From assembly GCA_026419195.1 (NCBI GenBank), contig JANZZV010000014.1, positions 1 through 39,844 on the forward strand: a stretch of DNA of 39,844 nt. The letters run 5' to 3'. Positions 6,659 through 37,193 of this stretch are shown here, piece by piece. The notes beneath the pieces are model-generated. The model made no database searches and was not told where the DNA came from. It saw only the letters and a program-made list of their open reading frames with translations. A program made the translations under genes and the position numbers. Origin of the DNA: Fervidobacterium sp. Lineage in GTDB: Bacteria; Thermotogota; Thermotogae; Thermotogales; Fervidobacteriaceae. Position 1 is the stretch's first letter; each line of letters opens with the position of its first letter.

Positions 6659-6661
6659 GCG

Positions 6662-12225: not shown

Positions 12226-12251
12226 TGTGTTGAAAAATTTAATAATCCAAG

Positions 12252-12410
12252 CATTACAGGTCTAAACAGGTTAAAAGGGAACGCCGGTGAAAGTCCGGGG
12301 CTGCCCAGCAACCGTGAGTAGGGACGAAACCCACAAAATGCCACTGGCGATAGCTGGGAAGGCGTGGGGAATAGGATGATCTACGAGCCGGGAGACCTGC
12401 CTGTAGTGTA
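12252..12410 (+). ncRNA. Cobalamin riboswitch 2 (aptamer)
   Basis: The same block order as riboswitch 1 is present: GGGAA (12277-12281), GCCGGTGAAAGTCCGGGG, CTGCCCAGCAACCGTGA, GCCACTGGCGATAGCTGGG and the B12 box GAGCCGGGAGACCTGCC. Short ACAGG repeats at the 5' side can pair with CCTG/CTGT at the 3' side to close the structure. It stands in front of the solute-binding protein and cbi genes and should shut down de novo synthesis and cobalt uptake when cobamide is abundant. Confidence 0.95.
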
Positions 12411-12413
12411 TGT

Positions 12414-12456
12414 TTTTCCCGAATCCTAAGGGGATTTTGGGAAAATTTGTTTTTTG
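12414..12456 (+). terminator. Riboswitch 2 expression-platform terminator
   Basis: TTTTCCCgAATCC pairs with GGGATTttGGGAAAA around a short TAAG loop and is followed by TTTGTTTTTT. The T-run ends directly before the ribosome site of the next gene. Confidence 0.8.
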
Positions 12457-14222: not shown

Positions 14223-14591
14223 ATGAAAATAATACTTTTGGTGTCTCATGGCAGTCGTGTACCAGAATCCATTACTGTGTGTGAAAAGGTAAAAAATGAC
14301 CTGGAAAATTTAATAAGCGATAAAATTGAACTATGTTATATGGAACTTTCAAAACCTTCTATAGAAGAAAAGGTGGAAGAACTTTACAACAAAGGCTATA
14401 AAAATATAATTGTTCTTCCATTTTTCCTTTTCGAGGGTATGCACATAAAAGTAGACATTCCTGAAATATTGGAAAAACTCGCTGAAAAGTTCAAAATATC
14501 GTTCTGTATAGCAAAACCCATAGGGTATGATAAAAGATTAGCGTATATTCTCAAAGAACGTTTGGACGAAGTTGGTGAAAGTTGTGCTTAG
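14223..14591 (+). CDS. cbiX: Sirohydrochlorin cobaltochelatase, short form
   Basis: CbiX inserts Co2+ into sirohydrochlorin, the entry to the anaerobic (early cobalt) route. At 122 residues it is the short CbiXS type of archaea, which acts as a homodimer. Both metal-binding histidines are at the family positions: His9 ('VSHGSR') and His74 ('FEGMHIKVDIPE'). No histidine-rich or Fe-S tail is present. ATG 14223 has a TAAGGAGG site. The gene overlaps cbiC by 20 bp. No cobA/cysG-type uroporphyrinogen methyltransferase is in the window, so sirohydrochlorin must come from genes elsewhere. Confidence 0.95.
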   Translation: MKIILLVSHGSRVPESITVCEKVKNDLENLISDKIELCYMELSKPSIEEKVEELYNKGYKNIIVLPFFLFEGMHIKVDIPEILEKLAEKFKISFCIAKPIGYDKRLAYILKERLDEVGESCA

Positions 14592-15258
14592 TTATTTGAA
14601 CTCACCGGCGGAAATTGAATTAAAAAGTTTTAGTATAATAAAAAGCAAAGTCAACAGATTAGACTTATCAGATGAAGAAAAGGAGATATTACTTAGGATA
14701 ATCCATACAACTGCTGACTTTCAATTTCAAGAATTATTTTACATTTCAAAAAACTTTTTAGATTATTGGTACGAAATGATATTATCTGCTAAAAAAGAGA
14801 ATAAGAAAATATCAGTTTATGTTGATACCGAGATGATAAGGGCAGGAGTTAATAAAAACAAGCTTAGACTTGTTGGTATAAACCTTTTCTGCCCGGTTAA
14901 TTATGACTCTGTTAAAAAAATTGCTGAAAAAACACAACTTACAAGGGCAATTGTCGGAATAGATTGGACTGTAAAGAATAGGAAAAGCACCAGAGTCTTT
15001 GTTATAGGTAACTCTCCAACCGCATTGTTTAGGTTGTGTGAGCACCTTCAAAAAAATGTAATTGATAATGTTGTTGTTATAGGTGTTCCTGTGGGATTTG
15101 TAGGGGCTAAAGAGTCTAAACTCTTTTTGCAAAAACTCAACGTACCTAAGATTTTGATTAAAGGTGAGAAAGGCGGTAGTACAATAGCAGTCGCAATTTT
15201 GAATTCATTGTTAAATCTATCAATTAGAAAGTTGGGATTTAATGAAAATCCAAAATAA
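14572..15258 (+). CDS. cbiC: Cobalt-precorrin-8 methylmutase
   Basis: CbiC moves the C11 methyl group to C12, giving cobyrinate. The catalytic histidine is His45 in 'RIIHTTADFQF'. 'VYVDTEMIRAGV' and 'VIGNSPTALFRL' and 'VIGVPVGFVGAKESK' are the standard substrate-binding blocks. At 228 residues it is slightly longer than usual. Start is TTG 14572 or GTG 14575, inside the end of cbiX; both lack a strong ribosome site, so translation is probably coupled. It overlaps cbiD by 17 bp. Confidence 0.96.
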   Translation: MVKVVLSYLNSPAEIELKSFSIIKSKVNRLDLSDEEKEILLRIIHTTADFQFQELFYISKNFLDYWYEMILSAKKENKKISVYVDTEMIRAGVNKNKLRLVGINLFCPVNYDSVKKIAEKTQLTRAIVGIDWTVKNRKSTRVFVIGNSPTALFRLCEHLQKNVIDNVVVIGVPVGFVGAKESKLFLQKLNVPKILIKGEKGGSTIAVAILNSLLNLSIRKLGFNENPK

Positions 15259-16306
15259 CTTAAGATATGGTTACACTACTGGAACCTGTGCCGCAGCCGC
15301 TACAAAAGCAGCGCTTTATATGTTGATAAATCAAAAACCTGTATTTCTTGTAGAAATACAAACTCCTTCTAATTTTGATTTATTACTGAACGTTGATTTT
15401 CCATTTTTCAACAAAGATTATTCAGAATGCGCAGTAAGAAAGGATGCTGGTGATGATCCTGATGTCACAAACGGACTTTATATCTTTTCAAAGGTCGAGT
15501 TTATAAGTCAAAAAACGATAGAAATACTTGGATCAGAAGGAATTGGAATTGCTACAAAAAAAGGACTTAGCGTATCTGTAGGTGATTATGCTATTAATCC
15601 AGTCCCCAGAAAAATGATAGAAAGAGAAATCGATAGAATTTTGAAAAACTATGGCTTAGAAAATGGAGTAAGGGTAACTTTAAGCATACCAAAAGGAGAA
15701 GTGGTAGCAAAGAAAACTCTTAATCCAAAGTTAGGAATAAAAGGTGGACTTTCCATTCTTGGAACAACAGGTATTGTTAAGCCCATATCTCATGAAGCGT
15801 TTGAAAATTCTCTAAGATTAGAAATTAATCAACTCTCACATTATTCAGAAACAATAGTTTTAACACCTGGAAATACTGGAATGAAAAAGGCATTAGAATA
15901 CGGTTTTTCAAACGAAAATATTGTCGTCTTCGGTAATTTTCTAAATGTTGCATTGGAAGTTATAAAATATAATAATTTCAAGCAGGTATATCTGATAGGT
16001 GAATTAGGAAAGCTAATAAAAGTCGCAGGTGGTATTTTTAATACGCACAGTAAAGTGGCAGACGCACGCAAGGAAATTTTTGTATACTATCTAACATTAT
16101 TCTGTAAAGGTAATTTGCACCATGAGATATTCCAGAAATTGACAAACGCTGTTACAACGAAAGAAATGCTTCAGATCCTGCGTGAATACAATATCAATAC
16201 GGCTAAATTTTTAAATTTTCTCGAAAAAATAATAATAGATAGGGTGCGAGAATACATAGACAAAGATGTAAAAATATATGTAAAGGTTTTTTCAGAGGGT
16301 GATTAA
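15242..16306 (+). CDS. cbiD: Cobalt-precorrin-5B C1-methyltransferase
   Basis: CbiD methylates C1 after ring contraction and loss of the acetaldehyde fragment. It is the one methyltransferase of the route outside the tetrapyrrole methylase family. The N-terminal 'LRYGYTTGTCAAAATKAAL' and the block 'RKDAGDDPDVTNG' are diagnostic, as are 'GGLSILGTTGIVKP' and 'VLTPGNTG'. Its 354 residues are normal. ATG 15242 starts within cbiC, and cbiE begins one base after its stop. Confidence 0.97.
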   Translation: MKIQNNLRYGYTTGTCAAAATKAALYMLINQKPVFLVEIQTPSNFDLLLNVDFPFFNKDYSECAVRKDAGDDPDVTNGLYIFSKVEFISQKTIEILGSEGIGIATKKGLSVSVGDYAINPVPRKMIEREIDRILKNYGLENGVRVTLSIPKGEVVAKKTLNPKLGIKGGLSILGTTGIVKPISHEAFENSLRLEINQLSHYSETIVLTPGNTGMKKALEYGFSNENIVVFGNFLNVALEVIKYNNFKQVYLIGELGKLIKVAGGIFNTHSKVADARKEIFVYYLTLFCKGNLHHEIFQKLTNAVTTKEMLQILREYNINTAKFLNFLEKIIIDRVREYIDKDVKIYVKVFSEGD

Positions 16307-16978
16307 ATGATAAGCATTGTAGGTATTGGTCCAGGTGATTTGGATTATATAAGTAACATGTCAGTTCAAAAAATTCTTAACGCAGATGTATTAATAGGTG
16401 GAAAAAGACATTTGGATTTATTTAAGGATCTTAAAGGTAAGGAATTTATAAGTTATGATTCAAGTCTTGATTTGGTTAAGTTGTTACAAAACTATCCTCC
16501 GGAGAAAAAAATAGTTTTCTTGGCTTCAGGCGATCCATTACTTCACGGCATCTTTGCTGTAATATCTAAACACATTGATAAGAACTTGATAGAAGTAATA
16601 CCAGGAATTAGTGCCATACAGTATCTTTGTTCAAAAGTAAAAGTCTCTACAGATAATCTTATAACACTTTCTCTTCACGGAAAAAAATTAACCGAAGAGT
16701 TTATACAAGAAATGTTGTTTTTATTAAGAAAATACGGAAAAGTCGCTGCTTTTACCGACTCAGTGAATACACCAAAAAAAATCGTTAATGAAATGCTGAA
16801 AAGTAATGATTTTACCGACTTTCTAAACTCTTGCCCGAATGAGATTAAACTTTACATTGGAGAAGATTTGTCTTATAAAAACGAGAGAATTTATGAGTTT
16901 AAATTTCTAGACTTTTTGATCTTTCCGAACGATTTTTCCAACTTAGTTACCATACTTATAACCTTGGAGGGACGATGA
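16307..16978 (+). CDS. cbiE: Cobalt-precorrin-7 C5-methyltransferase
   Basis: A 223-residue tetrapyrrole methylase. The N-terminal SAM/substrate loop 'IVGIGPGDLDYI' (residues 4-15), 'GGKRHLDLF', 'FLASGDPLLHGI' and 'VIPGISAIQYLCSKV' are in family order. Together with CbiT it forms the two halves of the fused CobL enzyme of aerobic bacteria: CbiE methylates C5. It overlaps cbiT by 4 bp (ATGA), which would keep the two products in balance. Confidence 0.93.
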   Translation: MISIVGIGPGDLDYISNMSVQKILNADVLIGGKRHLDLFKDLKGKEFISYDSSLDLVKLLQNYPPEKKIVFLASGDPLLHGIFAVISKHIDKNLIEVIPGISAIQYLCSKVKVSTDNLITLSLHGKKLTEEFIQEMLFLLRKYGKVAAFTDSVNTPKKIVNEMLKSNDFTDFLNSCPNEIKLYIGEDLSYKNERIYEFKFLDFLIFPNDFSNLVTILITLEGR

Positions 16979-17586
16979 AATTGAAAAAAGTTTTTGGAAT
17001 AAAGGACTATGAATTTGAATTATCCGGTAAAGTTCCGTACACAAAAGAAGAAGTAAGAGCTATTATCTTCCACAAATTAAATTTGAAAGAGTCCTCGGTG
17101 CTCTGGGACATTGGTTCAGGTACTGGTACAATTTCTATTGAATTTGCAAATCTATTACCAAAAGGACGTGTTTATTCTATAGACAAAGATCCACATGCAT
17201 TCGATGTAATGAAAAAAAATACACAAAGATTCGGTTTGAAAAACATTGTTCCTATTTTTGGCGAAGCTCCAGAGGTTTTGGAAAGTTTAGAAGTACCAAC
17301 ACACATTTTCATCGGAGGAACAGATCAAAGACTAAAAGAAATATTAGCCTATATATTAGAAGTTGGGAAAAAAGTCAAGATAATAGAAAAAATAATTATT
17401 ACAGCTGTATCTATCGAAACTTTTATTCAAAGCTTTGAGATAATTAATAGTGAAGAATTTGTAAATTTTTCTAATCATGAAATTGTTCAAATTTACATAT
17501 CTAGAGCTAATAAAATTTCAAAATACAATATCTTAAAACCAGCTAACCCAATTTTTTTATTTGATATATCACCTTGCTGGGAGTGA
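16975..17586 (+). CDS. cbiT: Cobalt-precorrin-6B C15-methyltransferase (decarboxylating)
   Basis: A 203-residue Rossmann-type SAM methyltransferase that methylates C15 and decarboxylates the C12 acetate. The N-terminal 'PYTKEEVRAI' and SAM motif I 'LWDIGSGTGTISIEFA' (near residues 43-58) are characteristic, with 'VYSIDKDPHAFDVMKKNTQRFG' next. 'HIFIGGT' matches the substrate loop. It is adjacent and coupled to cbiE. Confidence 0.95.
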   Translation: MKLKKVFGIKDYEFELSGKVPYTKEEVRAIIFHKLNLKESSVLWDIGSGTGTISIEFANLLPKGRVYSIDKDPHAFDVMKKNTQRFGLKNIVPIFGEAPEVLESLEVPTHIFIGGTDQRLKEILAYILEVGKKVKIIEKIIITAVSIETFIQSFEIINSEEFVNFSNHEIVQIYISRANKISKYNILKPANPIFLFDISPCWE

Positions 17587-17590
17587 AAAA

Positions 17591-18265
17591 ATGAAAGGAA
17601 AACTTTACGCAATTGGTGTTGGACCTGGCGATAAAGAATTGATTACGTTGAAAGCTTACAAAATACTTAAGCAGGCTGATATAGTTTTCTTACCATCGGG
17701 AAGAAAAGATTTTAGCTGGGCACTCAACGTAATTAAGGATTATATTCAATGTCCGTATGTTCTCTTACCATTTCAAATGGAAAAAGATAAAAATGAAACA
17801 ATCAAAGAAAATGCTCTCAAAATTTATAATCACATAAAAGATAATAAGCAATGCGTTTTCGCTACCGCAGGAGATGTTTCAATGTATAGTACTTTTTGGT
17901 ATCTCTATGGAGAACTCAAAAAAATAGATCAAGATCTCGACGTTGAGATAATTCCGGGTATTAATTCTTTTTCGGCTGCCAGCGCACGTTTGAAAATACC
18001 TGTAGCACAAGGACAAGAGAATTTTTGTGTACTTTCTTTTGGTCAAAAACAAGTGATCAAAAGCCAAATTTTTGAGAATATTATCGTATTAAAGCCCATT
18101 AAAGAAGTTGATGATTTGATAAATGAATTTATAGAAAATGGTTATAGAGAGATAAAAATAGCTGAAAAAGTTGGGACATTGGATGAGAAGTTAGGAAATC
18201 CTGAAGACTTTGATTTAAGTAAAAAAGAATATTTTAGACTTATAATAGCAAAAAAGCAAAGGTGA
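17591..18265 (+). CDS. cbiL: Cobalt-precorrin-2 C20-methyltransferase
   Basis: A 224-residue tetrapyrrole methylase that adds the C20 methyl later lost at ring contraction. Signatures: 'LYAIGVGPGDKELITLKA' (residues 4-21), 'TAGDVSMYSTFWYL' and 'EIIPGINSFSAASARL'. The choice of C20 rests on these blocks, especially the D-x-S-x-Y-S/T motif. The reading frame opens at 17561 but the GGGAGTG site places the start at ATG 17591, 4 bp after cbiT. CbiF begins 6 bp downstream. Confidence 0.93.
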   Translation: MKGKLYAIGVGPGDKELITLKAYKILKQADIVFLPSGRKDFSWALNVIKDYIQCPYVLLPFQMEKDKNETIKENALKIYNHIKDNKQCVFATAGDVSMYSTFWYLYGELKKIDQDLDVEIIPGINSFSAASARLKIPVAQGQENFCVLSFGQKQVIKSQIFENIIVLKPIKEVDDLINEFIENGYREIKIAEKVGTLDEKLGNPEDFDLSKKEYFRLIIAKKQR

Positions 18266-18271
18266 GGATTA

Positions 18272-19027
18272 ATGGTGTATTTTATCGGTGTAGGACCAGG
18301 AGATAGCGAATTAATAACTTTAAAGGCTTTGAAAATTATATCTACCAGTGATGTAATAATATACGCTGGGTCTTTAATAAACCAAGAAATACTTAACTAT
18401 TCAAAAAATGATGCCGAAAAGTTTGATAGTTCTCGCATGAACCTTGAAGAAATTATTCAAATAATTGAAGAAAATTGGAAAAAAAGAAGAAAAATATCAA
18501 GATTGCATCCTGGCGATCCTTCATTATACGGTGCTATTTACGAGCAGGCAAAAGAACTTGATAAAAGAGGTATAGAATACGAAGTTATTCCCGGCGTAAG
18601 TTCACTATTTGGTGCCGTTTCAAGGTTAAAACTTGAGTTCACACCACCCCAAGTATCTCAGACACTTATTATAACACGCTTAGAGGGAAAAACAGCCGTC
18701 CCTGAAAAAGAAAAACTCTCTTATCTTGCTTCTCACCAATCAAGCATGGCAATTTTTCTAAGTGTTCATATGATTGAAAAAGTCGTTCAAGAATTGAGGG
18801 CCGGAGGTTATAGTGATAATACCCCTGTTTGTGTTGTTTACAAGGCAACTTGGAAAGATGAAAAAATAATAAAAGGTAGGTTGGAAAATATTGCTGAGCT
18901 CGTCAAAAAAGAAGGTGTTGATAAATTTTCAATTATTTTCGTTGGAAATTTCCTAGAACCTTATGGCGAATACTCAAAGCTGTACGACAAGAACTTCTCA
19001 CATTCTTTTAGGAGGAAACAAGCTTGA
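18272..19027 (+). CDS. cbiF: Cobalt-precorrin-4 C11-methyltransferase
   Basis: A 251-residue tetrapyrrole methylase. 'VYFIGVGPGDSELITLKA' (residues 2-19), 'VIIYAGSLIN', 'RLHPGDPSLYGAIYEQ', 'YEVIPGVSSLFGA' and the basic 'LIITRLEGKT' are the hallmarks of CbiF/CobM. 'VVYKATWKDEKI' near the C-terminus is also typical. It overlaps cbiG by 4 bp, fitting the sequence C11 methylation and then CbiG hydrolysis. Confidence 0.96.
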   Translation: MVYFIGVGPGDSELITLKALKIISTSDVIIYAGSLINQEILNYSKNDAEKFDSSRMNLEEIIQIIEENWKKRRKISRLHPGDPSLYGAIYEQAKELDKRGIEYEVIPGVSSLFGAVSRLKLEFTPPQVSQTLIITRLEGKTAVPEKEKLSYLASHQSSMAIFLSVHMIEKVVQELRAGGYSDNTPVCVVYKATWKDEKIIKGRLENIAELVKKEGVDKFSIIFVGNFLEPYGEYSKLYDKNFSHSFRRKQA

Positions 19028-20088
19028 CTGAAAACCAGAAAGTTGCTTTCGTTGTTATATCCAAAAACGGTTTAAAAATGGCAAGATTCTTAACAAAACT
19101 CTTAGGCGGTGATATATTTTGTCTTAACAAATATAAAGAAGATGATTGTATTGGTTTTGAAAAAGTTACCGAAATAACACAGAATATATTCAAGAAATAT
19201 AATATTATTGTTTATATAATGGCAACGGGAATAGTTGTAAGAAGTATATCGAATTTAATAAATAATAAGTTTTTGGACCCAGCAGTTATCGTGATAGATG
19301 ACGCTGGAAAGTTTGTTATAAGCCTAATTTCTGGGCACTTTGGAGGAGCAAATGAGTTAACAATTCTTATAGCTAATTTTTTAAATGCAATACCAGTGGT
19401 CACCACCGCAACTGATGTGCACAATAAGTTTTCAATTGATAATTATATGAAAAAGTACTTCATGTTGCCAAATGATTACAAAGAGCTTAAATTATTCTCC
19501 GTCAAGATTTTAAAAGGTGAAAAATTAAACATCTACATTGAAGAGCAACTTTCCGAATTCTCATTTGTAAAAGAAATAATAAATCAAATTCCTCATGCTT
19601 GTTTTCATTTTAATTATTTAAACAGCATAAACTACGACTTGTTGATAACTTTCAAGGACAATTTATTTGGATCTGTAATACTCTACCCTAAGATCTTGCA
19701 CGTTGGAATTGGCTTTTCAACAAAGGTTAACTCCTCAGATTTACTTTTTGCTGTTGAGGAAAGCTTCAAAAAGTATAACTTATCAATTAAATCCTTAAAA
19801 AGTGTATCTTCACTGGAAAAAAAGGTTCAAACAAACGTATTTCAAGACTTCTACGAAAAGCTTTGTTCTTACACTTTTGTTCAGAAAAATAGTTTCTGTG
19901 TGGAGAAATTAAAAGCGCACGAAGATAAATTTCAAGGATCTGATTTCGTAAAAGGTGCGGTAGGAATTGGAGCGGTTGCAAGACCTTGTGCTTATTTATC
20001 GAGTAAAAAAGGTATAGAAATATTCTACGAAAAAATGAAAGGTGTAACAATTTCAACATTCATCGAAAATCCGAAAGGAGATGATTAA
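19024..20088 (+). CDS. cbiG: Cobalt-precorrin-5A hydrolase
   Basis: CbiG opens the delta-lactone of cobalt-precorrin-5A and releases acetaldehyde, a reaction unique to the anaerobic route. The 354-residue protein shows the three expected parts: an N-terminal domain ('VYIMATGIVVRSI'), a central segment ('VISLISGHFGGANELTILIA') and the C-terminal CbiG_C domain ('LHVGIGFSTKVNSSDLLFAVEE', here given as family block; 'SVSSLEKKV'). The start is TTG 19024 with GGAGG eight bases upstream. It is not fused to CbiH as in some bacteria. Confidence 0.93.
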   Translation: MTENQKVAFVVISKNGLKMARFLTKLLGGDIFCLNKYKEDDCIGFEKVTEITQNIFKKYNIIVYIMATGIVVRSISNLINNKFLDPAVIVIDDAGKFVISLISGHFGGANELTILIANFLNAIPVVTTATDVHNKFSIDNYMKKYFMLPNDYKELKLFSVKILKGEKLNIYIEEQLSEFSFVKEIINQIPHACFHFNYLNSINYDLLITFKDNLFGSVILYPKILHVGIGFSTKVNSSDLLFAVEESFKKYNLSIKSLKSVSSLEKKVQTNVFQDFYEKLCSYTFVQKNSFCVEKLKAHEDKFQGSDFVKGAVGIGAVARPCAYLSSKKGIEIFYEKMKGVTISTFIENPKGDD

Positions 20089-20089
20089 A

Positions 20090-20848
20090 TTGTCATGGCT
20101 AAAAGTAGTAGGAATCGGTCCAGGAAAGGTTGATTACTTAACAATAAGGGCTTACAGAGTGCTTACAGATAGCGAAATAATAGTAGGATATAAAAGATAC
20201 TTAGACCTCATAAAAGACGAATTCTCTTCAAAAGAGCTTGTAGGTTCTGACATGGGGGATGAAAAAGAACGGGTGAAAAAAGCCATAAAATTCTACTTAT
20301 CAGGCAAGAAAGTAGCGATTGTTTCAGGAGGAGATGCCGGACTTTATGGAATTGCTTCAGTTGCGATAGAAGAGATGCAAAACACTGCGATAGATTTTGA
20401 AAAAGCGCAATTTGAAATAGTTCCCGGTGTAACAAGTGCAACAGCAGTTTCTAACTTGGTAGGTTGCGTGGTAACACAAGATTTTGCAACAATCAGTTTG
20501 TCCGATTATCTCGTTCCGTGGAAAGAAATTGAGAAGCGTTTGGAAAATTTTTCCAAACTTGATATAACCTTGGCTATCTACAATCCCATAAGCTCCAAAC
20601 GTATAAATAATTTCGAAAAAGCAATTGAAGTATTGAAAAAACACAAAACTCCAGAGACTTTAGTTGTAATTTGTGAAAACGCATATAGAGAAGGAGAAAA
20701 AATTATTATTACCAACATTGGAGATTTTGATAAAGAAACAGTAAACATGAATTGTATTATTATTGTTTGTCCATCGAATACCAAATTAGTATACACCAAT
20801 AACAAGACTTATGTTTTAGTACCAAGATACTATAACAAGGTATTATAA
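20090..20848 (+). CDS. cbiH: Cobalt-precorrin-3B C17-methyltransferase
   Basis: The ring-contraction methyltransferase (252 residues). Blocks: 'VVGIGPGKVDYLTIRA', 'IVGYKRYLDLI', 'IVSGGDAGLYGIASVA', 'EIVPGVTSATAVSNLVG' and 'AIYNPISSKR', all typical of CbiH/CobJ. ATG 20081 touches the AAAGGAG site (20074-20080), so TTG 20090 is the more likely start; it follows the cbiG stop directly. The C-terminal 'VLVPRYY' is the usual end of the domain. Confidence 0.93.
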   Translation: MSWLKVVGIGPGKVDYLTIRAYRVLTDSEIIVGYKRYLDLIKDEFSSKELVGSDMGDEKERVKKAIKFYLSGKKVAIVSGGDAGLYGIASVAIEEMQNTAIDFEKAQFEIVPGVTSATAVSNLVGCVVTQDFATISLSDYLVPWKEIEKRLENFSKLDITLAIYNPISSKRINNFEKAIEVLKKHKTPETLVVICENAYREGEKIIITNIGDFDKETVNMNCIIIVCPSNTKLVYTNNKTYVLVPRYYNKVL

Positions 20849-20871
20849 AATAATCATAATTGGTGATAGGT

Positions 20872-21663
20872 ATGAAATTACTAATACTTTCGGGAACTTC
20901 TGACGGCAACAACTTAGCTTGCGAACTTTCTAAATATAATCACACAGTTATTGTCACCTCAACAACTGACTTAGGAAAGTTTTTTGCAAGTAAATTTTTT
21001 AAGGAAAGCAAATGTAAAGTAAAGGTATTGAAAAAAGTTTTCAAAAACGAAAATGATATCATTGAGTTCGTGAAAAATCAGAAAATTGAAATGATAATTG
21101 ATTGTACGCACCCATTTGCGGAGAATATAAAGTCAATACTAACGCAGTTACAAGATCAAATTTTGATTGTACGCTACGAAAGACCAAAAATAGAAATTGG
21201 ATACTTAAAAGCTATAGAAGTTAGCTCTTTTGAACAGGCGGCTAAAGCTTGTCAAAAATTTAAGAATATATTTTTGAGTATAGGTTCAAGTAGAATAAAC
21301 TTTTTCGAAAATTTAATAAAGAGTGGAAAAAACATATATGCACGAGTTCTTCCTACAAAGGATTCTATTGATAAGTGTTTGAAAGCAGGTATAAAGATGG
21401 AAAATTTAGTTTTAGATGTTGGACCATACACTTTGGAAAAAAATCTTGAACATTTTAGAAAAAGCCAAGCCGAAGTTGTCGTTTCCAAAGACAGTGGACA
21501 AAGCGGAGGATTATTTGAAAAAATAAAGGCATGTGAAATATTAGAAATACCTATAATTATAATAAAACCAAGAGAAAACAGTTTATGTAATAAATTCTAC
21601 TCTCTCAACCAAATAGTTGAATTTGTAAATTCTAAAACAGCTATGTTGAATGACAAAGTATAA
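20872..21663 (+). CDS. cbiJ: Cobalt-precorrin-6A reductase
   Basis: CbiJ reduces the macrocycle at C18-C19 with NADH. The 263-residue protein has the N-terminal 'LLILSGTSDGNNLA' nucleotide-binding-type loop, 'IDCTHPFA' and the C-terminal 'VVSKDSGQSGGLFEKIKA', all signatures of CbiJ/CobK. The frame is open from TTG 20860 but GGTGAT before ATG 20872 favours the latter. This is the last corrin-ring gene before the cobalt transporter. Confidence 0.93.
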   Translation: MKLLILSGTSDGNNLACELSKYNHTVIVTSTTDLGKFFASKFFKESKCKVKVLKKVFKNENDIIEFVKNQKIEMIIDCTHPFAENIKSILTQLQDQILIVRYERPKIEIGYLKAIEVSSFEQAAKACQKFKNIFLSIGSSRINFFENLIKSGKNIYARVLPTKDSIDKCLKAGIKMENLVLDVGPYTLEKNLEHFRKSQAEVVVSKDSGQSGGLFEKIKACEILEIPIIIIKPRENSLCNKFYSLNQIVEFVNSKTAMLNDKV

Positions 21664-21680
21664 TCAAAGGAGTGAATTTT

Positions 21681-22397
21681 GTGATAAAACTGAGTGTTTT
21701 TGTTATTTTGACAGCATTTTCAAGCTTAAGTTTCTCTATGCACATTGCAGAAGGTTTCTTACCAATAGGTTGGGCAGCGGTTTGGTATATTGTAAGTATA
21801 CCATTTGTGTTTTTTGGCATGAGGAAAGTCTCTAATTTCATGAAGAGCGATGATAGAAATATTTTTCGCATGGCTTTTATTATAGGATTTGTCTTTGTCC
21901 TATCAGCGTTGAAAATACCGTCAGTAACCGGAAGTTGTTCACATCCTACAGGTATAGGTCTTGGAGCAGTTGTATTTGGTCCCTTTGTAATGGCGGTAAT
22001 TGGATTAGTTGTACTATTATTTCAAGCGCTATTAATAGCGCATGGTGGTATAACAACACTTGGGGCAAATATATTTTCCATGGCGATAGTTGGTTCCTTC
22101 GTTGGATACTTTGTATTCAAGACATTAAAAAGGTTGAAATTAAACACAAACACTTCGATTTTTCTTACTGCATTCTTATCTGATTTATCAACTTACGCCG
22201 TTACATCCGCTCAACTCGCCTTAGCCTTTCCATCAAGTCAAGGAGGCTTTTTGTTATCTCTTCTTAAGTTTGGTGGTGTCTTTTTAATCACACAGATACC
22301 ACTTGCTATTTTTGAAGGTATAATAAGTATATTTGCTTATAAGTTCTTGATGGAATCTTTACAAACACACGAAGGAAGTGAGCAACATGAAGGGTAG
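21681..22397 (+). CDS. cbiM: Cobalt ECF transporter substrate-specific component CbiM
   Basis: CbiM binds Co2+ for the energy-coupling-factor importer CbiMNQO. A signal-like segment is followed by 'MHIAEGFLP' (Met20-His21): in the family, processing exposes this Met-His end, which coordinates the metal. 'GSCSHPTGIGLGA' and 'LLIAHGGITTLGANIFSMAI' are the conserved loops. Five to seven membrane helices are visible in 238 residues. GTG 21672 is inside the AAAGGAG site, so GTG 21681 is chosen. It overlaps cbiN by 11 bp. Confidence 0.95.
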   Translation: MIKLSVFVILTAFSSLSFSMHIAEGFLPIGWAAVWYIVSIPFVFFGMRKVSNFMKSDDRNIFRMAFIIGFVFVLSALKIPSVTGSCSHPTGIGLGAVVFGPFVMAVIGLVVLLFQALLIAHGGITTLGANIFSMAIVGSFVGYFVFKTLKRLKLNTNTSIFLTAFLSDLSTYAVTSAQLALAFPSSQGGFLLSLLKFGGVFLITQIPLAIFEGIISIFAYKFLMESLQTHEGSEQHEG

Positions 22398-22674
22398 TTA
22401 CTTACTCTTAATAATCTTAGAATTGGCACTGGTAATTTTACCCATTCTTTTTATTGATGGAAGTTTTGAAGGTACAGATGTTCAAGCGGAAAAACTTGTA
22501 CAACAAATTAATCCTGATTATAAACCTTGGTTTAGCTCGATTTGGGAACCTCCAAGTAGTGAAATAGAAAGTTTAATTTTCTCTATACAATCGGCGATAG
22601 GATCAGGGATAATATTCTACATTATAGGGTATTCAAACGGAATTAAAAAAAGAAAAGCTAACAATAAGATATGA
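22387..22674 (+). CDS. cbiN: Cobalt transport protein CbiN
   Basis: A 95-residue accessory membrane protein with two helices (about residues 5-21 and 70-86) flanking an external loop with 'FEGTDVQAEKLVQQINPDYKPW', a CbiN pattern. CbiN assists metal loading of CbiM. AAGGAAG eight bases upstream supports ATG 22387 over the in-frame GTG 22378. It overlaps cbiQ by 4 bp. Confidence 0.92.
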   Translation: MKGSYLLLIILELALVILPILFIDGSFEGTDVQAEKLVQQINPDYKPWFSSIWEPPSSEIESLIFSIQSAIGSGIIFYIIGYSNGIKKRKANNKI

Positions 22675-23399
22675 AAAAAGATGTTAGTTTTGAAGGCAAC
22701 TTAGACTTTTTCCTTCTGTATGTAATGACAGTGGTGAATGTTTTTATTATGGAATTTACAAATTCGCCAAATATAACTTATAAATCTACTTTTTTCTTTA
22801 CACTTCTAATTTTCATATTCAATGATATAGCAAATTTTAAAAAAAATATAAAACTTTTCTTTTGGTCAGGTATGGTCATTTTACTACTATCTATTCCCAT
22901 ATTGGTTGAAATAGACTTTTCAAAAAGGTTAATTTTACATTTTGAAAAGGAAAACTTGTATTTATTCGAAAAAACAGTACTTCGCAGTCTTTTATTAATT
23001 ATTAGCTTAATCATGCTTGCAAATAAACAGGATATAGCAGATTTCGTTTATATATTAAGGAAAATGAAGTTCAGCAATGATTTTCTGTTGTTATTTGTAA
23101 TCAGTTATAAAACAATAGAAAATTTATACGTGATAGCAAAGGAAATTTTAGAATCACAGCTATCAAGAAATGGTTATACACATTTTTTTAAATCTGTAAA
23201 ATCAACTTTCCTATTAACTCAGGGTATATTGAGAAAGGGTACATCAAAGATACAGGAAATGGTTGATGCTCATAGAAGTAGAAACATTGAAAAAATAAAT
23301 TTGCTTGAAAAAAACTATAGAATAAGCATAAAGCCGTTTATTTACGAAATTATCATCATTTTATTGGTGGTGCTTGAAAAGTGGATGTACCGATTTTAG
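22671..23399 (+). CDS. cbiQ: Cobalt ECF transporter transmembrane component CbiQ
   Basis: A 242-residue T-component of the cobalt importer. Four or five hydrophobic helices are followed by the cytoplasmic coupling region; 'SQLSRNGYTH' and 'EMVDAHRSRNI' correspond to the two short A-R-G-type coupling helices that contact the ATPase, here in altered form. The sequence is more divergent than its neighbours, and identification leans on its place between cbiN and cbiO. It overlaps cbiO by 19 bp. Confidence 0.88.
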   Translation: MKKDVSFEGNLDFFLLYVMTVVNVFIMEFTNSPNITYKSTFFFTLLIFIFNDIANFKKNIKLFFWSGMVILLLSIPILVEIDFSKRLILHFEKENLYLFEKTVLRSLLLIISLIMLANKQDIADFVYILRKMKFSNDFLLLFVISYKTIENLYVIAKEILESQLSRNGYTHFFKSVKSTFLLTQGILRKGTSKIQEMVDAHRSRNIEKINLLEKNYRISIKPFIYEIIIILLVVLEKWMYRF

Positions 23400-24040
23400 A
23401 AGTTGAAAATGTTTCTTTCTCATATGGGGAAAAAGTAGTTATTAAATCGTTTAATATAAGGATTTTTCGTTCAGATGTTATCTTTTTGTTAGGTGCAAAT
23501 GGATGTGGAAAAACCACTCTTTTAAAAATTATAGATGGACTAATTATACCAAATTATGGTACTTTGAGATTTAATGGTGAACCATACAAGTATAACAAAA
23601 GTTTTCTAAAAAAACTAAGACAAAATGTTGGCTTTGTTTTCCAAAACCCAGACGTTCAAATTTTTGCTCCAACTGTGATTCAAGAACTGTCTTTTGGACT
23701 TTATAGTTGTGAAATTCAGAAAAACAAGGTTTTGGAACTTACTTGGGAATTTTTGAACAGCTGGGGATTAGAAAAGTATGCTTATGAAAATCCATTTAAG
23801 TTAAGTTACGGTTATAAAAGATTAATTACACTTGCAAGCGTGTTAATAACATCTCCAAGTATTGTTTTATTAGATGAACCAACGAATTATCTTGATAAGA
23901 GAAACCATTCGTTTGTGCTTAATAAAATAAAGGAGTTAGCGGACAAAAACGTTACGATGATTATCTCCACCCACGATGAAAAACTTATAGATTTACTTTC
24001 TTCAAGATCGAAAATAATTCGTATGGAATGCAATATATAA
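23381..24040 (+). CDS. cbiO: Cobalt ECF transporter ATPase CbiO
   Basis: A 219-residue ABC ATPase that powers the cobalt importer. Walker A 'GANGCGKTTLLK' (about 38-49), Q-loop 'FQNPDVQIFAPTV', Walker B 'IVLLDEPTNYLD' and switch histidine 'ISTHDE' are intact. The signature reads 'LSYGYKR' instead of LSGGQ(K/R); ECF ATPases vary at this place but two changed residues are notable. It is short compared with the usual 270, lacking a C-terminal extension. Start GTG 23381 lies inside cbiQ. Confidence 0.92.
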   Translation: MDVPILEVENVSFSYGEKVVIKSFNIRIFRSDVIFLLGANGCGKTTLLKIIDGLIIPNYGTLRFNGEPYKYNKSFLKKLRQNVGFVFQNPDVQIFAPTVIQELSFGLYSCEIQKNKVLELTWEFLNSWGLEKYAYENPFKLSYGYKRLITLASVLITSPSIVLLDEPTNYLDKRNHSFVLNKIKELADKNVTMIISTHDEKLIDLLSSRSKIIRMECNI

Positions 24041-24052: not shown

Positions 24053-25252
24053 GTGGTAAAAATTCTGATTAACGACTCAGGTATGTATGGTTTGTGGATG
24101 ATAAACGCACTAATAAATTCAAATATAAAGTTCAAAGTTGAATTTTTATCCGACGACAAAATTTTAGATTTAAAAAACACAAAAGCCTTGTTTGTTCCTG
24201 GAGGATGGGCTGAAAATAAGATTGAAAACATATCGGAAAAATCTAAGGAAACTTTAAGAAAATTTATAGAAAACGGTGGAATATACTTTGGAATATGCGG
24301 TGGTGCAAGACTTGCAAGCAAAGGCTTCTTGGATTTAATAAATATACAAAAAGATAGCGAAAATTTAAAAAATTATAGCGGACCTGTGATGGTAAATTTC
24401 TCCATGCATGATTTAACAAAAGATCTTAATGAAAAACAATTCATCTGGTTTCCGCCGAAATTTAAAATTATAGATGATAAAGTAAAAGTACTTGCAACTC
24501 TCAAATCTGTTTGCTCAGAGGCCTTTGTTTATGGAATTCCAGTGAGATTAACATCTAAAATTGCCCAAAAAAATGAGACTTACAAAAATTTATTCAACAC
24601 CGATCTGCTTGTTGGTTCTCCTGTCTTGATGTTAGAAAAGCTCGACTTCGGAGAAATCTTAGTATCCACAATACATTTTGATACGCCCACGGTTGATGGT
24701 TCAAGGTTTTTTCATAACTTGAAATACTATTTTAATCTCGAAGAATTTATTTGTCCTAAATTCATTAATGAAGTCTATCTAAAACCGGTATGTGAAAATG
24801 AGATATATAAAATATTATTTCAAAATTATAAACGTGTTTCACAAATTATAAATTTAGCCAAAAGATGCATGTTAATTAAAAAACGATACCACTTTTATTA
24901 CTCATGGCAAAGTGGTTTTAGAGGATCAGAATATCAAACACTTTATTTTATTCTAAGAGAACTTGTAAAATTGCATGGGGCAATTAGCTTTCCAAAGGCT
25001 GTTGTAAACGAGATTTTGTACATATTATTAGATGGTTACTTAGAAAAAATAAAGGAACTAACGGAATATATGGAAGAGAGGATAATTTATTTCAAGTTAG
25101 ATAAAATTGACGAAATTTTTGAAAAAGAAAGTTTGTATTTTGGTCATCCAAAAGGAGTTCACGGAAAGTATGGTGGTTTGTACAGAAAAGTATTAAATTG
25201 CTTAGAAAAAATAATTTGCATTTCATATAACTGTATTTTAGAAGAGAGGTGA
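24053..25252 (+). CDS. Class I glutamine-amidotransferase-like protein of the B12 operon
   Basis: A 399-residue protein not assigned to a known B12 enzyme. The N-terminal about 230 residues resemble the GATase1-like fold of biotin-protein-ligase N-terminal (BPL_N) domains: 'KALFVPGGWAENK', the nucleophile elbow 'YFGICGGARLAS' with Cys82, and a later 'TIHFDTPTVDG' with His208 followed by an acidic residue. The C-terminal about 150 residues are helical and unrecognised. There is no P-loop, so it is not CbiA. It lies 12 bp after cbiO and 5 bp before a DUF71 PP-loop gene and cbiP. GTG 24044 is within the ribosome site, so GTG 24053 is chosen. A glutaminase or corrin-binding role is inference. Confidence 0.7.
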   Translation: MVKILINDSGMYGLWMINALINSNIKFKVEFLSDDKILDLKNTKALFVPGGWAENKIENISEKSKETLRKFIENGGIYFGICGGARLASKGFLDLINIQKDSENLKNYSGPVMVNFSMHDLTKDLNEKQFIWFPPKFKIIDDKVKVLATLKSVCSEAFVYGIPVRLTSKIAQKNETYKNLFNTDLLVGSPVLMLEKLDFGEILVSTIHFDTPTVDGSRFFHNLKYYFNLEEFICPKFINEVYLKPVCENEIYKILFQNYKRVSQIINLAKRCMLIKKRYHFYYSWQSGFRGSEYQTLYFILRELVKLHGAISFPKAVVNEILYILLDGYLEKIKELTEYMEERIIYFKLDKIDEIFEKESLYFGHPKGVHGKYGGLYRKVLNCLEKIICISYNCILEER

Positions 25253-25257
25253 AATCT

Positions 25258-25899
25258 ATGTTTTACAATGGTACAATAACCGAAGTTCCAGTAGTTTTTT
25301 CTTCGTGGAGTGGAGGTAAAGATAGTGCGCTTTCGTTTTACAAGGCAAAAGAATTCTTTGGGAAAGTTGATTACATCTTTACAATGTTTGATGAAAATTG
25401 CCAACGTACAAGAGCACATGGATTAAAACCAGAGATTATTAGAATGCAGTCGGAAAGTATCGGAGTACCACTGATACATGGTTGTGCATCTTGGGAAAGT
25501 TATGAAGCAATTTTCAGTAGTATACTTGAAAAACACTTCTCAGGTGGTGTTGGTGTCTTTGGTGACATTGACCTTCAAGAACATTTAGATTGGATAGTTC
25601 GTGTATGCAATCAAAAGAATGTGAACGTTTTCGAACCACTCTGGAAAAAATCAAGGGAAGAGATATTTAACGAGTTTATTAAACTCGGGTTCAAAGCAAG
25701 AGTAGTTGCTGTCAAAAAAGGATTTGAACAGTTGCTTGGAAAAGAGTTAGACGAAAATTTTGTTGAATTTGCCAATAGTTTAGGAGCAGATCTATGTGGT
25801 GAAAATGGTGAATACCACACACTTGTCTACGATGGTCCAATATTCTCTTTTCCACTCCCGATAGATAAGATATATCGCGAGCATATAAAAGGAGAATGA
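25258..25899 (+). CDS. DUF71/Dph6-like PP-loop ATP-pyrophosphatase (B12-associated)
   Basis: A 213-residue enzyme of the diphthine-ammonia ligase family (COG2102/DUF71). The PP-loop 'SGGKDS' is at residues 18-23 and the family motif 'GENGEYHT' at 181-188. Characterised members adenylate a carboxyl group and replace AMP by ammonia to form an amide, in diphthamide synthesis. Bacteria have no diphthamide, and a bacterial subgroup has been linked to B12 genes by comparative genomics. Here it sits between the amidotransferase-like gene and cbiP, both concerned with amide formation. ATG 25258 has a GAGAGGTG site that overlaps the previous stop. Substrate unknown. Confidence 0.85.
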   Translation: MFYNGTITEVPVVFSSWSGGKDSALSFYKAKEFFGKVDYIFTMFDENCQRTRAHGLKPEIIRMQSESIGVPLIHGCASWESYEAIFSSILEKHFSGGVGVFGDIDLQEHLDWIVRVCNQKNVNVFEPLWKKSREEIFNEFIKLGFKARVVAVKKGFEQLLGKELDENFVEFANSLGADLCGENGEYHTLVYDGPIFSFPLPIDKIYREHIKGE

Positions 25900-25900
25900 T

Positions 25901-27373
25901 ATGAGTAAATCTATAGTGATCTTAGGCACAATGTCATCCGCAGGCAAAAGCACAATAGTAGCCGGATTATGTAGGTTGTTTGCCAACATGGGTATAAGGG
26001 TAGCACCTTTTAAATCACAGAACATGTCAAACAATGCCGCCGTTTGTAAAGATGGTGGAGAGATAGGCAGAGCGCAGTATCTGCAAGCAATTGCTTGCAA
26101 AATAGAACCAACCGTTGACATGAACCCAATTCTACTGAAACCAGAAGGAAATTCAAAATCACAAGTCATTGTTAGGGGTAAAGTGTGGGACACAATATCT
26201 GCTGTAAGCTATTATGAACGTAAAAAATACTTGTGGAATATTGTTGTAGAGTCGATTGAGAATTTGAAATCAAATTACGAACTTATCGTTGTTGAAGGAG
26301 CTGGTAGTCCTGTAGAACTCAATTTGAAAGACAATGATATCGTTAATATGGCAATAGCTAAGTACTTAAACGCCCCTACATATTTGGTCGGAGATATAGA
26401 TCGCGGAGGTATTTTTGCTCAGCTTTTGGGAACTTACTGGCTTTTGGAAGACGACGAGAAAAGTTTGATAAAAGGTTTCATCGTAAACAAGTTCAGAGGT
26501 GACTTAGCCCTTTTTAAAAGCGGTATCGAAATCGTAGAGCAAAGGTCGAAGGTACCAGTTGTTGGTGTTGTTCCTTATGTTGATTTGATATTACCTCAAG
26601 AAGATTCCACAACTTTAGACCAGTTAAGTAAATATGAAGGAAAAATAGATATATGTGTCGTTGCTTACCCACATATTTCAAACTTCGATGATTTTGATGC
26701 TTTGAAAATGGAAAAAAATGTAAGATTGAGATTCGTGAGTAATGTACGAGATTTTGCAAACCCTGATGTGGTTATACTGCCAGGTTCGAAAAATACTATT
26801 AGAGATCTAATATGGTTAAAATTGTCTGGTTTTGAGAACGTTTTGAGAAATTATCTAAAAAATGGCGGTAAACTTATCGGTATTTGTGGTGGTTATCAAA
26901 TGCTTGGAAAAAAAATATACAACCCCCATAAAATTGAAAGCGAGATAAGAGAAATAGACGGGCTTGGATTTTTAAATATTCAAACAACTTTCAAAAACAA
27001 AAAAACCACAAGACAAATCTGTGCTAGGATGATTAAAGACATTGGTTTTTTCACAGAAAGTCTTTTAGAAGGTTACGAAATTCATTTAGGACAAACAGAA
27101 AATTTGGACGATAATTATATATTTGAAATGCAAATTGATGGCAAATTAGTAAAAGACGGAGCATTCGATACAGATTTTAAAGTGTGGGGAACATACATAC
27201 ATGGTATATTTAACAATGATGATTTTAGGGGAAAATTTCTGCAAAGTTTAGGTATTGAGAAATCAAACATGTCTTACAAAGATTTCCTCGAATCCACACT
27301 TGAAAAACTAGCGCAGGTAATCGAAAAAAATGTTGACATTCAAAAAATACTTAACGATGCAAAAATATATTGA
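25901..27373 (+). CDS. cbiP: Adenosylcobyric acid synthase (glutamine-hydrolysing)
   Basis: CbiP amidates carboxyls b, d, e and g of adenosylcobyrinate a,c-diamide using glutamine and ATP. The 490-residue protein has the N-terminal dethiobiotin-synthetase-like ATP domain ('LGTMSSAGKSTIVAGL', 'PFKSQNMSNNA', 'MNPILLKPEG', 'VVEGAGSPVELNL') and the C-terminal class I amidotransferase domain with 'LIGICGGYQMLG' (nucleophile Cys) and 'VWGTYIHGIFN'. ATG 25901 follows AAAAGGAG. CbiA, the partner for positions a and c, is not in the window. The end overlaps the upstream open frame of cbiB but not its likely start. Confidence 0.97.
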   Translation: MSKSIVILGTMSSAGKSTIVAGLCRLFANMGIRVAPFKSQNMSNNAAVCKDGGEIGRAQYLQAIACKIEPTVDMNPILLKPEGNSKSQVIVRGKVWDTISAVSYYERKKYLWNIVVESIENLKSNYELIVVEGAGSPVELNLKDNDIVNMAIAKYLNAPTYLVGDIDRGGIFAQLLGTYWLLEDDEKSLIKGFIVNKFRGDLALFKSGIEIVEQRSKVPVVGVVPYVDLILPQEDSTTLDQLSKYEGKIDICVVAYPHISNFDDFDALKMEKNVRLRFVSNVRDFANPDVVILPGSKNTIRDLIWLKLSGFENVLRNYLKNGGKLIGICGGYQMLGKKIYNPHKIESEIREIDGLGFLNIQTTFKNKKTTRQICARMIKDIGFFTESLLEGYEIHLGQTENLDDNYIFEMQIDGKLVKDGAFDTDFKVWGTYIHGIFNNDDFRGKFLQSLGIEKSNMSYKDFLESTLEKLAQVIEKNVDIQKILNDAKIY

Positions 27374-27398
27374 TTTTTTTGAGACAAAGGAGGAAAGA

Positions 27399-28274
27399 AT
27401 GCGGGAAAAAGTTATTATTTTGATTACTGCAATTTTCTTTGACATTCTCTTTGGCGAATATCCTACAAAAATACATCCGGTTGTGTACATGGGATTTATA
27501 GGTAAACTATTTGACAGATATTATTCAGGTAAAAAAAGTAGGTCTCTCTCTTTCTTTCTCGGTAGCATTTCGTTGATTTTTGAAATAACTTATTGGGTAG
27601 TTATTGTTTTTTTAATAAGCTTTGTTAACTATTCTTGGTTAAGGTTACTCTTACAAATCTATCTTTTGAAATCCGCTTTTTCAATAAAGTCTTTGTACAT
27701 ACACGTAAAAAATTGCACAGTCGATGATCAAGAAGAACTGAAAGAAAAAGTAAAGTTAATAGTCTCAAGAGATGTTAGCAAACTTGATAAACCTCATCTT
27801 TATTCTGCAGCAATAGAAAGTCTTTCTGAAAATATCTCTGATAGTATCACAGGTCCTTTGTTCTATTATCTGCTATTTGGCTTGTATGGAGCGATCATTT
27901 ATAGAGTGGTGAACACTTACGATGCGTTATTTGGTTACAGAACAGTAAAATACGAATGGTTTGGAAAATTTTGCGCAAGATTTGATGATCTGTTAAACAT
28001 AATTCCTTCGCGGTTAACAGCACTTGTGATTATACTATTTAACCCAAAACGTGGACTGGAATACATAACAAGATACGGAGGTATAAAGATAAACTCAACA
28101 TATCCAATGAGTGCATTTTCTGGGGTCTTAGGTGTCGGACTCGAAAAGATAGGATACTATAAATTTGATGGAAAATTACCCGACAAGTACGATATTTTTC
28201 GTGCTCTGAAATTGTATAAAAGGATTGTGACGATTTTGCTAAGTGTGGTGATTTCACTGTGCATGGTGGTATAA
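27399..28274 (+). CDS. cbiB: Adenosylcobinamide-phosphate synthase
   Basis: CbiB joins (R)-1-aminopropan-2-ol phosphate to adenosylcobyrate in the membrane. Of 291 residues, the N-terminal 'FDILFGEYPTKIHPVVYMG' and 'AAIESLSENISDSITGPLFYYLLFG' blocks are the family signature, and 'YRVVNTYDALFGYR' follows. Several membrane helices are visible. AAAGGAGGAAAGA places the start at ATG 27399, 25 bp after cbiP. It overlaps cobD by 16 bp, whose product supplies its substrate. Confidence 0.95.
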   Translation: MREKVIILITAIFFDILFGEYPTKIHPVVYMGFIGKLFDRYYSGKKSRSLSFFLGSISLIFEITYWVVIVFLISFVNYSWLRLLLQIYLLKSAFSIKSLYIHVKNCTVDDQEELKEKVKLIVSRDVSKLDKPHLYSAAIESLSENISDSITGPLFYYLLFGLYGAIIYRVVNTYDALFGYRTVKYEWFGKFCARFDDLLNIIPSRLTALVIILFNPKRGLEYITRYGGIKINSTYPMSAFSGVLGVGLEKIGYYKFDGKLPDKYDIFRALKLYKRIVTILLSVVISLCMVV

Positions 28275-29266
28275 AAGATGAAAATACGATTGACTTTTCA
28301 ATTTCAGTAAATACTTTGGTTCCTGATTTTATAAAAATCGCCTTTGAGGATGTTTTAAGATACGAAACAAGGTACACTTATGTCGAATGGATAGAGGAGG
28401 ACTTCAAAAAGTTATTTGGAGAGGACTGTACTATTGTCGCTGGAGCTACTGAAGCTTTACAAATAATTGGATGGACTATAATGAAGGATGCGTGTGTTTT
28501 AATACCCTTGCCAAATTATACAGAATACGCAAAAATAGCAAGATTTTCAAGTTCACAATTAAAAACGGTATGGATTTTAGAAAATGGTCGACTTAATTTA
28601 GATCGCTTAACAAAACATGTTAAAGATGAATTAGAGAAGCATAAAAAAATTGCTGTTATTCTTGGAAATCCAAATAATCCAACTGGAATTTATGAAGATT
28701 TGAATTGTTTCCTTAAGGATCTGCAGGATTACTCAGAAAAAATAATAGTGATTGTAGATGAGGCATTTGTTGATTTTGTTCCCGATAATTTTCTTAGACA
28801 CATAGATTTAGACAAATTTGAAAATGTTATTATACTAAGGACATTTACAAAAATACTTGGAATTCCTGGAGTAAGGATTGGTTATGTGAAAACGAAAAAG
28901 TATAATCATTTGTTTAAAAAATACAGAATGCTTTGGGCAATTGGTGGAAGTGGATATATGGTATTAGAAAAGATCGTAGAAAACTACCATGATTACAAAA
29001 AATTTATCGACAAAACAAAGAAGTACTACGAAGATGAAAGGCAAAAATTTTCTCATCTTATGGCGTTCCCTTCGAAAACAAACTACTTAACGTGCAAAAT
29101 TCAAAACGAAAATACCTTTAGAAAGCTAATAAAACAGAAAAATATTCACGTAAGATTTATGAAAGATTTTAATATGTCGGGCTATATAAGATTAGGATTA
29201 AAGTCTCAAAAAGATAATCAACTAATACTCCATTTGCTCACAAATTATCTTGGAAAGGAGAGATAA
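28259..29266 (+). CDS. cobD: L-threonine-O-3-phosphate decarboxylase
   Basis: A 335-residue fold-type I PLP enzyme that makes (R)-1-aminopropan-2-ol phosphate. The N-terminal 'HGGIKDENTIDFSISVNTL' corresponds to the CobD 'HGG...DFSxNxNP' start and separates it from HisC. 'LGNPNNPTG', 'VDEAFVDF' and the PLP lysine Lys198 in 'RTFTKILGIPGVRIGY' are present. Start GTG 28259 lies inside cbiB. No threonine kinase gene (pduX or bluE type) is seen in the window. Confidence 0.92.
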   Translation: MHGGIKDENTIDFSISVNTLVPDFIKIAFEDVLRYETRYTYVEWIEEDFKKLFGEDCTIVAGATEALQIIGWTIMKDACVLIPLPNYTEYAKIARFSSSQLKTVWILENGRLNLDRLTKHVKDELEKHKKIAVILGNPNNPTGIYEDLNCFLKDLQDYSEKIIVIVDEAFVDFVPDNFLRHIDLDKFENVIILRTFTKILGIPGVRIGYVKTKKYNHLFKKYRMLWAIGGSGYMVLEKIVENYHDYKKFIDKTKKYYEDERQKFSHLMAFPSKTNYLTCKIQNENTFRKLIKQKNIHVRFMKDFNMSGYIRLGLKSQKDNQLILHLLTNYLGKER

Positions 29267-29267
29267 A

Positions 29268-29777
29268 ATGGGTTTTATACACATTTACACAGGAAATGGG
29301 AAGGGAAAAACAACAGCAGCACTTGGTCTTGCACTAAGGGCGATATGTGCTGGAAAGAAAGTATATATGGGTCAATTCGTAAAAGGCATGAAATACAGCG
29401 AACTTGAAGCTGTAAAGTATTTACCTAACTTTGTTATTGAACAGTACGGTAGAAATTGTTTTATTAAAAATTCACCTACACAAGAAGATATAAAACTTGC
29501 ACAAGAAGGACTCGAAAGAGCAAGACAAGTGATACTTTCTGGTCGATTTGATATAGTAATATTGGATGAAATAAATATAGCTGTACATTACAAACTTATT
29601 GAGGCAGAACAAGTCATAGACCTTATAACTCAAAGACCTGAAAACGTAGAAATAATTCTAACCGGAAGATATGCACCAAAACGGTTCATCGAAATTGCAG
29701 ATCTTGTAACAAACATGGAAGAAATAAAACATTACTACCAAAACGGAATAGAAGCAAGAAAAGGAATAGAATATTGA
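29268..29777 (+). CDS. btuR: Corrinoid adenosyltransferase, BtuR/CobA type
   Basis: This enzyme adenosylates cob(I)yrinate a,c-diamide and other corrinoids with ATP. The 169-residue protein has the reversed-type P-loop 'YTGNGKGKTTAALGLALRA' near the N-terminus, 'VYMGQFVKGMKYSE' and 'FDIVILDEINIA', all BtuR/CobA signatures. AAAGGAG before ATG 29268 fixes the start. It is the last gene of the riboswitch-2 operon; only 18 bp separate it from the convergent chemotaxis gene and no clear terminator is visible there. Confidence 0.96.
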   Translation: MGFIHIYTGNGKGKTTAALGLALRAICAGKKVYMGQFVKGMKYSELEAVKYLPNFVIEQYGRNCFIKNSPTQEDIKLAQEGLERARQVILSGRFDIVILDEINIAVHYKLIEAEQVIDLITQRPENVEIILTGRYAPKRFIEIADLVTNMEEIKHYYQNGIEARKGIEY

Positions 29778-31548: not shown

Positions 31549-31662
31549 TTTATATTACACATAGAAATTACACTTATGTAACAAACAGATAGAATTATCA
31601 CTATTTAAAACTACTTGTGGTAATATATTTAGTAGAAATCATTGAAAATTTAATATTCTCCC

Positions 31663-31818: not shown

Positions 31819-31824
31819 GATGCT

Positions 31825-37186: not shown

Positions 37187-37193
37187 CAATTGC

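Follow-up and report, generated by a model that had tools for sequence, protein, structure and literature searches.

A corrin operon without CbiA in Fervidobacterium sp. and the candidates for its missing amidation step

The a,c-diamide synthase CbiA/CobB is reported to be present in 99% of predicted cobamide producers and has been used as a marker gene (PMC6461909). Its homologue CbiP forms four of the amides of that corrin ring (PMC7242693). In sulfate reducers, DsrN acts as siroheme amidase (PMC10504309). Dph6 relatives make amides from ATP and ammonia (PMC3541065), and the motif ENGEF/YH defines a DUF71-B12 subgroup (de Crecy-Lagard et al., 2012, PMC3541065). Here we describe a contig of Fervidobacterium sp. 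(GenBank assembly GCA_026419195.1, contig JANZZV010000014.1, positions 1 to 39,844; contig C14 of genome G000), the whole of which is called the window. It carries an anaerobic B12 pathway that lacks CbiA, with two genes directly before cbiP, one of them for an amidotransferase-like protein here named GAT402 and the other for a DUF71 protein. The open reading frames (ORFs) of positions 24053-27373 are the following:

24053..25252, + strand, GAT402, class I amidotransferase-like, with a BPL_N/GATase_3-like N domain and an unnamed conserved C-terminal domain
25258..25899, + strand, PP-loop protein of DUF71/COG2102, DUF71-B12 subgroup, with SGGKDS and CGENGEYHT
25901..27373, + strand, CbiP, cobyric acid synthase, full length, with ATPase and glutaminase domain

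All three are open and nearly abutting. GAT402 starts with GTG at 24053, a longer version from a GTG at 24044 being possible, and the DUF71 ORF starts at either 25249 or 25258.

The B12 set identified in the window comprises CbiX, C, D, E, T, L, F, G, H, J, CbiMNQO, CbiB, CobD, CobA, CobT, CobU, and CobS, and its corrin genes are all intact and riboswitch-led. The first-pass annotation had read this as a near-complete corrin gene set without cbiA, and profile and similarity searches of the window together with a genome-wide TIGR00379 search bear this out. In the draft genome, which comprises 2.06 Mb in 118 contigs and is 97.7% complete, TIGR00379 matched only the tail of CbiP and a 192-amino-acid amidotransferase, and CbiA was found in none of the 41 genomes searched, i.e., this one and 40 relatives, which speaks against the earlier caveat that cbiA could simply lie elsewhere in the genome. 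GAT402 and DUF71 did not match TIGR00379 either, membership of which joins ATPase and GATase_3 in one protein. The absence is not a failure of sensitivity, since in four Thermotogota further afield (family f10) the same search does recover CbiA, with 275-328 bits. CbiC, taken for corrin synthesis, is present in 8 of 103 Thermotogota, namely the source genome, G012, G015, and G017 of family f1, and the four of family f10; the first four lack CbiA and the last four have it, adjoining cbiP wherever both were seen. The operons of the three f1 genomes hold cobT, cbiX to cbiJ, hem genes, cbiM to cbiO, and DUF71; their cbiP lies apart, in a second cluster. Neither CbiA nor GAT402 was found in these corrin operons. 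As they show the same gap, and the G015 assembly is a single contig, the gap is neither an accident of assembly nor tied to the presence of GAT402. A complete corrinoid gene set and B12 production are described for T. africanus and T. melanesiensis, and T. affectus is without 20 of these 22 genes (PMC6211235). The gene content of the source genome points to Fervidobacteriaceae (Thermotogota). Other members of the genus of the source genome have salvage genes alone or no B12 genes. A further candidate with corrin genes, DUF71, and no CbiA (G123) was dropped as a firm case, being a draft bin with neither cbiP nor cbiB on the contig stretch read. Because CbiA is missing both genome-wide and in corrin-making relatives, the gap in a,c-amidation is confirmed as real.

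Apart from CbiP, no full corrin amidotransferase was found in the source genome. CbiP matches TIGR00313 over both domains with 520.7 bits (cut-off 309.9) and thus belongs to CbiP/CobQ. As it stands alone there, the simplest reading is that CbiP has taken over side chains a and c, amidating these in addition to the usual four. DUF71 would then act in salvage or remodelling, and it and GAT402 would be neighbours in the operon rather than an established two-part synthase. CbiP is the likelier substitute for CbiA because GAT402 and DUF71 each occur elsewhere in other settings. In support of this reading, the three CbiA-less f1 genomes combine CbiP with DUF71 and are without GAT402, and the cbi operons with GAT402 in G441, G280, and G479 belong to genomes with a true CbiA. 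In a tree the window CbiP and the f1 CbiPs fall on separate branches, the latter being sisters of CbiPs from the CbiA-containing f10 genomes, and CbiA is therefore missing from two separate CbiP lineages. Several points weigh against CbiP. We know of no experiment in which CbiP acts on side chains a and c. The CbiA-less CbiP lineages share one residue that is absent from the CbiA-containing ones, which is no more than in controls. DUF71 is present in every CbiA-less corrin producer seen, and canonical CbiA was found in none of the three genomes with GAT402, DUF71, and corrin genes (G000, G332, and G513). Taking both sides together, we infer with an even chance of being right that CbiP carries out all six amidations in the CbiA-less pathway.

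CbiP also occurs in reduced form. In seven salvage-only relatives (G003, G005, G006, G007, G008, G009, and G013) it is cut down to the ATPase domain of about 280-300 amino acids. Glutaminase-less loci include L036:10021-10863, L040:9470-10342, L041:8753-9661, L228:8150-9010, and L229:9125-9973; a P-loop was seen in the three sequences read, and DUF71 is always also present, in several cases adjacent. In G013 (L035:17293-19001) an isolated CbiP, 70% identical to that of the window, stands with a broken DUF71 just upstream and transposase-like ORFs on its flanks, and is a relic of the window arrangement.

The DUF71 ORF matches PF01902 at 1.8e-41 and has the PP-loop SGGKDS; with its end at 25899 and the start of cbiP at 25901 it lies directly before that gene, as the first-pass annotation had stated. 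CGENGEYHT contains the ENGEF/YH motif in place of the Dph6 EGGE/DxE motif. Among 80 related DUF71 loci that were fetched, nearly all with the same motif, the neighbours are mainly btuCDF, cobU, cobT, and cobS, and GAT402 adjoined none of the 80. Of 50 genomes with such a DUF71, 40 lack CbiC and 10 have it, and CbiA is present in nine of ten CbiC-bearing DUF71 genomes outside Thermotogota. A sister of the corrin producers, G019, has no CbiC in its genome and no cbiX-cbiO block; at L226:9407-12340 its cobT is followed directly by DUF71, with the outer genes as in the sisters. Since G019 and the CbiC-less genomes keep DUF71, it serves where no cobyrinate is made, and judged by this genomic context the window protein most likely has a role in corrinoid salvage or remodelling. 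The CbiA-containing G093, also of Thermotogota, has a DUF71 as well, in an EGGEFH variant away from the B12 cluster, and the idea that thermophiles have strictly either DUF71 or CbiA was dropped as G093 has both. In G513 and G190 (L232:6279-7187 and L249:10818-11753) a second, asparagine-synthase-like PP-loop protein with SGGLD stands between DUF71 and cobD, an arrangement that recalls archaeal AsnB-DUF71 fusions.

GAT402 matches only BPL_N, GATase_3, GATase, and other amidotransferase or DJ-1-like models in Pfam, and no ATP-binding domain was detectable in that search. Counted from the 24053 start, Cys82 and His208 are exactly where the first-pass annotation had placed them, and all 21 homologues compared keep both; two positions beyond the His (Asp210 in the window), 13 of them have Asp and 8 have Glu. 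The protein thus has the class I glutamine amidotransferase triad of elbow Cys, His, and acidic third residue, followed by a conserved C-terminal domain (WxxGxRG ... FG ... YGG). Compared with biotin-protein ligase only residues 44-93 match BPL_N, and the ligase domain is absent. No relatives were found in the other 102 Thermotogota or among solved structures, and a single-sequence scan gave none in the genome contigs and only weak BPL-N matches in plasmids. A structure model from the single sequence was too poor for use (mean pLDDT 34). In Thermodesulfobacteriota, relatives occur in 49 of 395 genomes, the best with 37% identity at full length. Five close relatives lie inside cbi operons in the order cbiL-cbiF-cbiGH-GAT402, with cobU next in three, and the window protein groups with three operon-borne relatives in a tree (98/97 support, long branch); GAT402 is therefore a real, recurrent corrin-operon gene. 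In three of the five genomes with GAT402 in a cbi operon (G441, G280, and G479) a true CbiA is found among the cbi genes and there is no DUF71. GAT402 is best described as an enzyme-like protein of tetrapyrrole operons with a conserved Cys-His-Asp/Glu triad.

The distribution of CbiA in sulfate reducers has to be read with care. TIGR00379 also detects DsrN, and scores it as high as or above some true CbiA, so that CbiA calls in these organisms need a tree. A match was obtained in 39 of 39 GAT402 genomes tested; that all of these have CbiA was rejected, the sole copy being DsrN-like by neighbours or tree in ten (G332, G513, G190, G288, G315, G340, G226, G259, G510, and G434). The apparent CbiA adjoining GAT402 in G340, G259, and G226 was likewise rejected as this neighbour is DsrN-like. 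DUF71 is found in three of the 39 other GAT402 genomes. Two of these, G332 and G513 (Thermodesulfobacteriota), have a cbi operon with GAT402, DUF71, and the CbiA homologue DsrN, while G190 is the fourth genome with both GAT402 and DUF71, the latter in a salvage-type cluster. DsrN might perform the a,c step in G332 and G513, and as both carry it the CbiA-less pattern of the three genomes with the pair is confounded. The proposed co-occurrence of the pair with absence of cbiA is accordingly seen in three of three corrin genomes with both genes, but it is undercut by DsrN in two of them and by the f1 genomes, which are CbiA-less without GAT402.

The first-pass annotation had proposed a possible two-part module, in which GAT402 would free ammonia from glutamine and DUF71 would adenylate cobyrinate at its a and c carboxyls and form the amides, the pair replacing CbiA. 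Here the gap is real, both proteins are plausible enzymes, and all three genomes with both proteins and corrin genes lack canonical CbiA; the two genes are adjacent, nearly overlapping, and directly before cbiP, the triad of GAT402 is kept, and Dph6 relatives form amides with ATP and ammonia (PMC3541065). The pairing itself was not supported, however, with none of 80 DUF71 loci adjoined by GAT402 and only three of 39 other GAT402 genomes carrying DUF71. In addition, the f1 genomes manage without either CbiA or GAT402, a true CbiA is encoded in three genomes whose cbi operon includes GAT402, DUF71-B12 occurs mostly where corrin synthesis is absent and together with CbiA in nine of ten corrin producers outside Thermotogota, DUF71 carries His in place of the catalytic Glu188 of Dph6, and DsrN is present in G332 and G513. 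Replacement of CbiA by the pair seems quite improbable. DUF71 could also make the a,c-diamide by itself from free ammonia in the CbiA-less lineages, besides its salvage role. It is present in all CbiA-less corrin producers seen (G000, G012, G015, G017, G332, G513, and the draft G123) and directly follows cbiO in the f1 operons, but the subgroup is found mainly in genomes making no corrin, it accompanies CbiA in the same nine of ten corrin producers and, as the EGGEFH variant, in G093, and the His at the Glu188 position speaks against it here as well; this we consider rather improbable. In the broader form, that GAT402 with DUF71, or DUF71 with ammonia and aided by GAT402 where present, is a CbiA-unrelated cobyrinate a,c-diamide synthase in CbiA-less Thermotogota and Thermodesulfobacteriota, the proposal is unlikely.

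It is also conceivable, if improbable, that a diverged or unrelated enzyme is encoded elsewhere in the genome or that CbiA falls within the 2% absent from the assembly. A draft of 118 contigs and 97.7% completeness leaves room for this, but the sisters are also without CbiA, one of them in a single contig, and TIGR00379 does recover CbiA in the f10 genomes. Finally, de novo synthesis may stop at this step, with imported amidated corrinoids being used and the corrin operon decaying, for which the relic in G013 and the several relatives with salvage genes only could be cited; as the window genes are intact and riboswitch-led, and sisters with the same gap are described as B12 producers (PMC6211235), decay is very unlikely. 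Amidation of a and c by CbiP thus stays the favoured reading. Where a whole corrin pathway is kept without CbiA, either a single CbiP is capable of all six amidations or there is an enzyme not yet recognised, and pathway annotation would have to be corrected in both cases. The findings further restrict the roles open to DUF71-B12 and draw attention to GAT402 as a corrin-operon gene.

The corrin operon runs on one strand in the order riboswitch, solute-binding protein, cbiX-J, cbiMNQO, GAT402, DUF71, cbiP, cbiB, cobD, cobA. The genes cbiD, E, T, L, and F were named from their sequences and their resemblance to the sister operons. Its remaining features, and those of the nucleotide-loop cluster, are:

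4243-4408, cobalamin riboswitch at the cobT-cobS cluster
4471..7405, + strand, cobT, cobU, TIM-barrel ORF, cobS (nucleotide-loop assembly)
12241..12418, + strand, cobalamin riboswitch 5' of the corrin operon (RF00174, 119 bits)
12447-14207, family-5 solute-binding protein, first gene after the corrin-operon riboswitch
14223..21663, + strand, cbiX, C, D, E, T, L, F, G, H, J (corrin ring), by profile matches or similarity
21672..24040, + strand, cbiM, N, Q, O (cobalt ECF transporter), cbiN named by position and sister-operon similarity
27330..28274, + strand, CbiB, by sequence searches
28259..29777, + strand, cobD and cobA, operon end, by sequence and gene order conserved in relatives

The TIM-barrel-like ORF at 6002-6658 keeps its position between cobU and cobS in nearly every Thermotogota B12 cluster read, and may fill in for a nucleotide-loop step that is missing. 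Elsewhere in the window a pair of succinyl-CoA-synthetase-like genes with a cobalamin riboswitch in front occupies 31652-33771, and at 34893-39183 a TPP riboswitch precedes genes that are Thi4-like, ThiC-like, TIM-barrel, and ThiD/N-like.

Compared with the described systems, GAT402 shares with BPL_N and class I glutamine amidotransferases the PGGW motif, the GICGG elbow, and the Cys-His-Asp/Glu triad, but differs from them in its extra conserved C-terminal domain and in having no NCBIfam family and no match among solved structures. The window DUF71 resembles the DUF71-B12 subgroup in its PP-loop SGGKDS, its ENGEYH motif, and its clustering with B12 genes (PMC3541065), whereas most relatives stand beside transport or nucleotide-loop genes and this one lies inside a full corrin operon without CbiA. 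With Dph6, the diphthine-ammonia ligase (PDB 3RJZ/3RK1), it has the fold family and ATP-site residues in common (E 8e-20), although His replaces the catalytic Glu188 and it falls outside Dph6 membership. The reaction missing from the window is that of CbiA/CobB; GAT402 and DUF71 are outside the family of CbiA/CobB and DsrN, of which CbiP is the sole member-relative in this genome. As cobyric acid synthase the window CbiP is a full orthologue of CbiP/CobQ, and unlike the usual enzyme it would need to accept non-amidated cobyrinate for six amidations.

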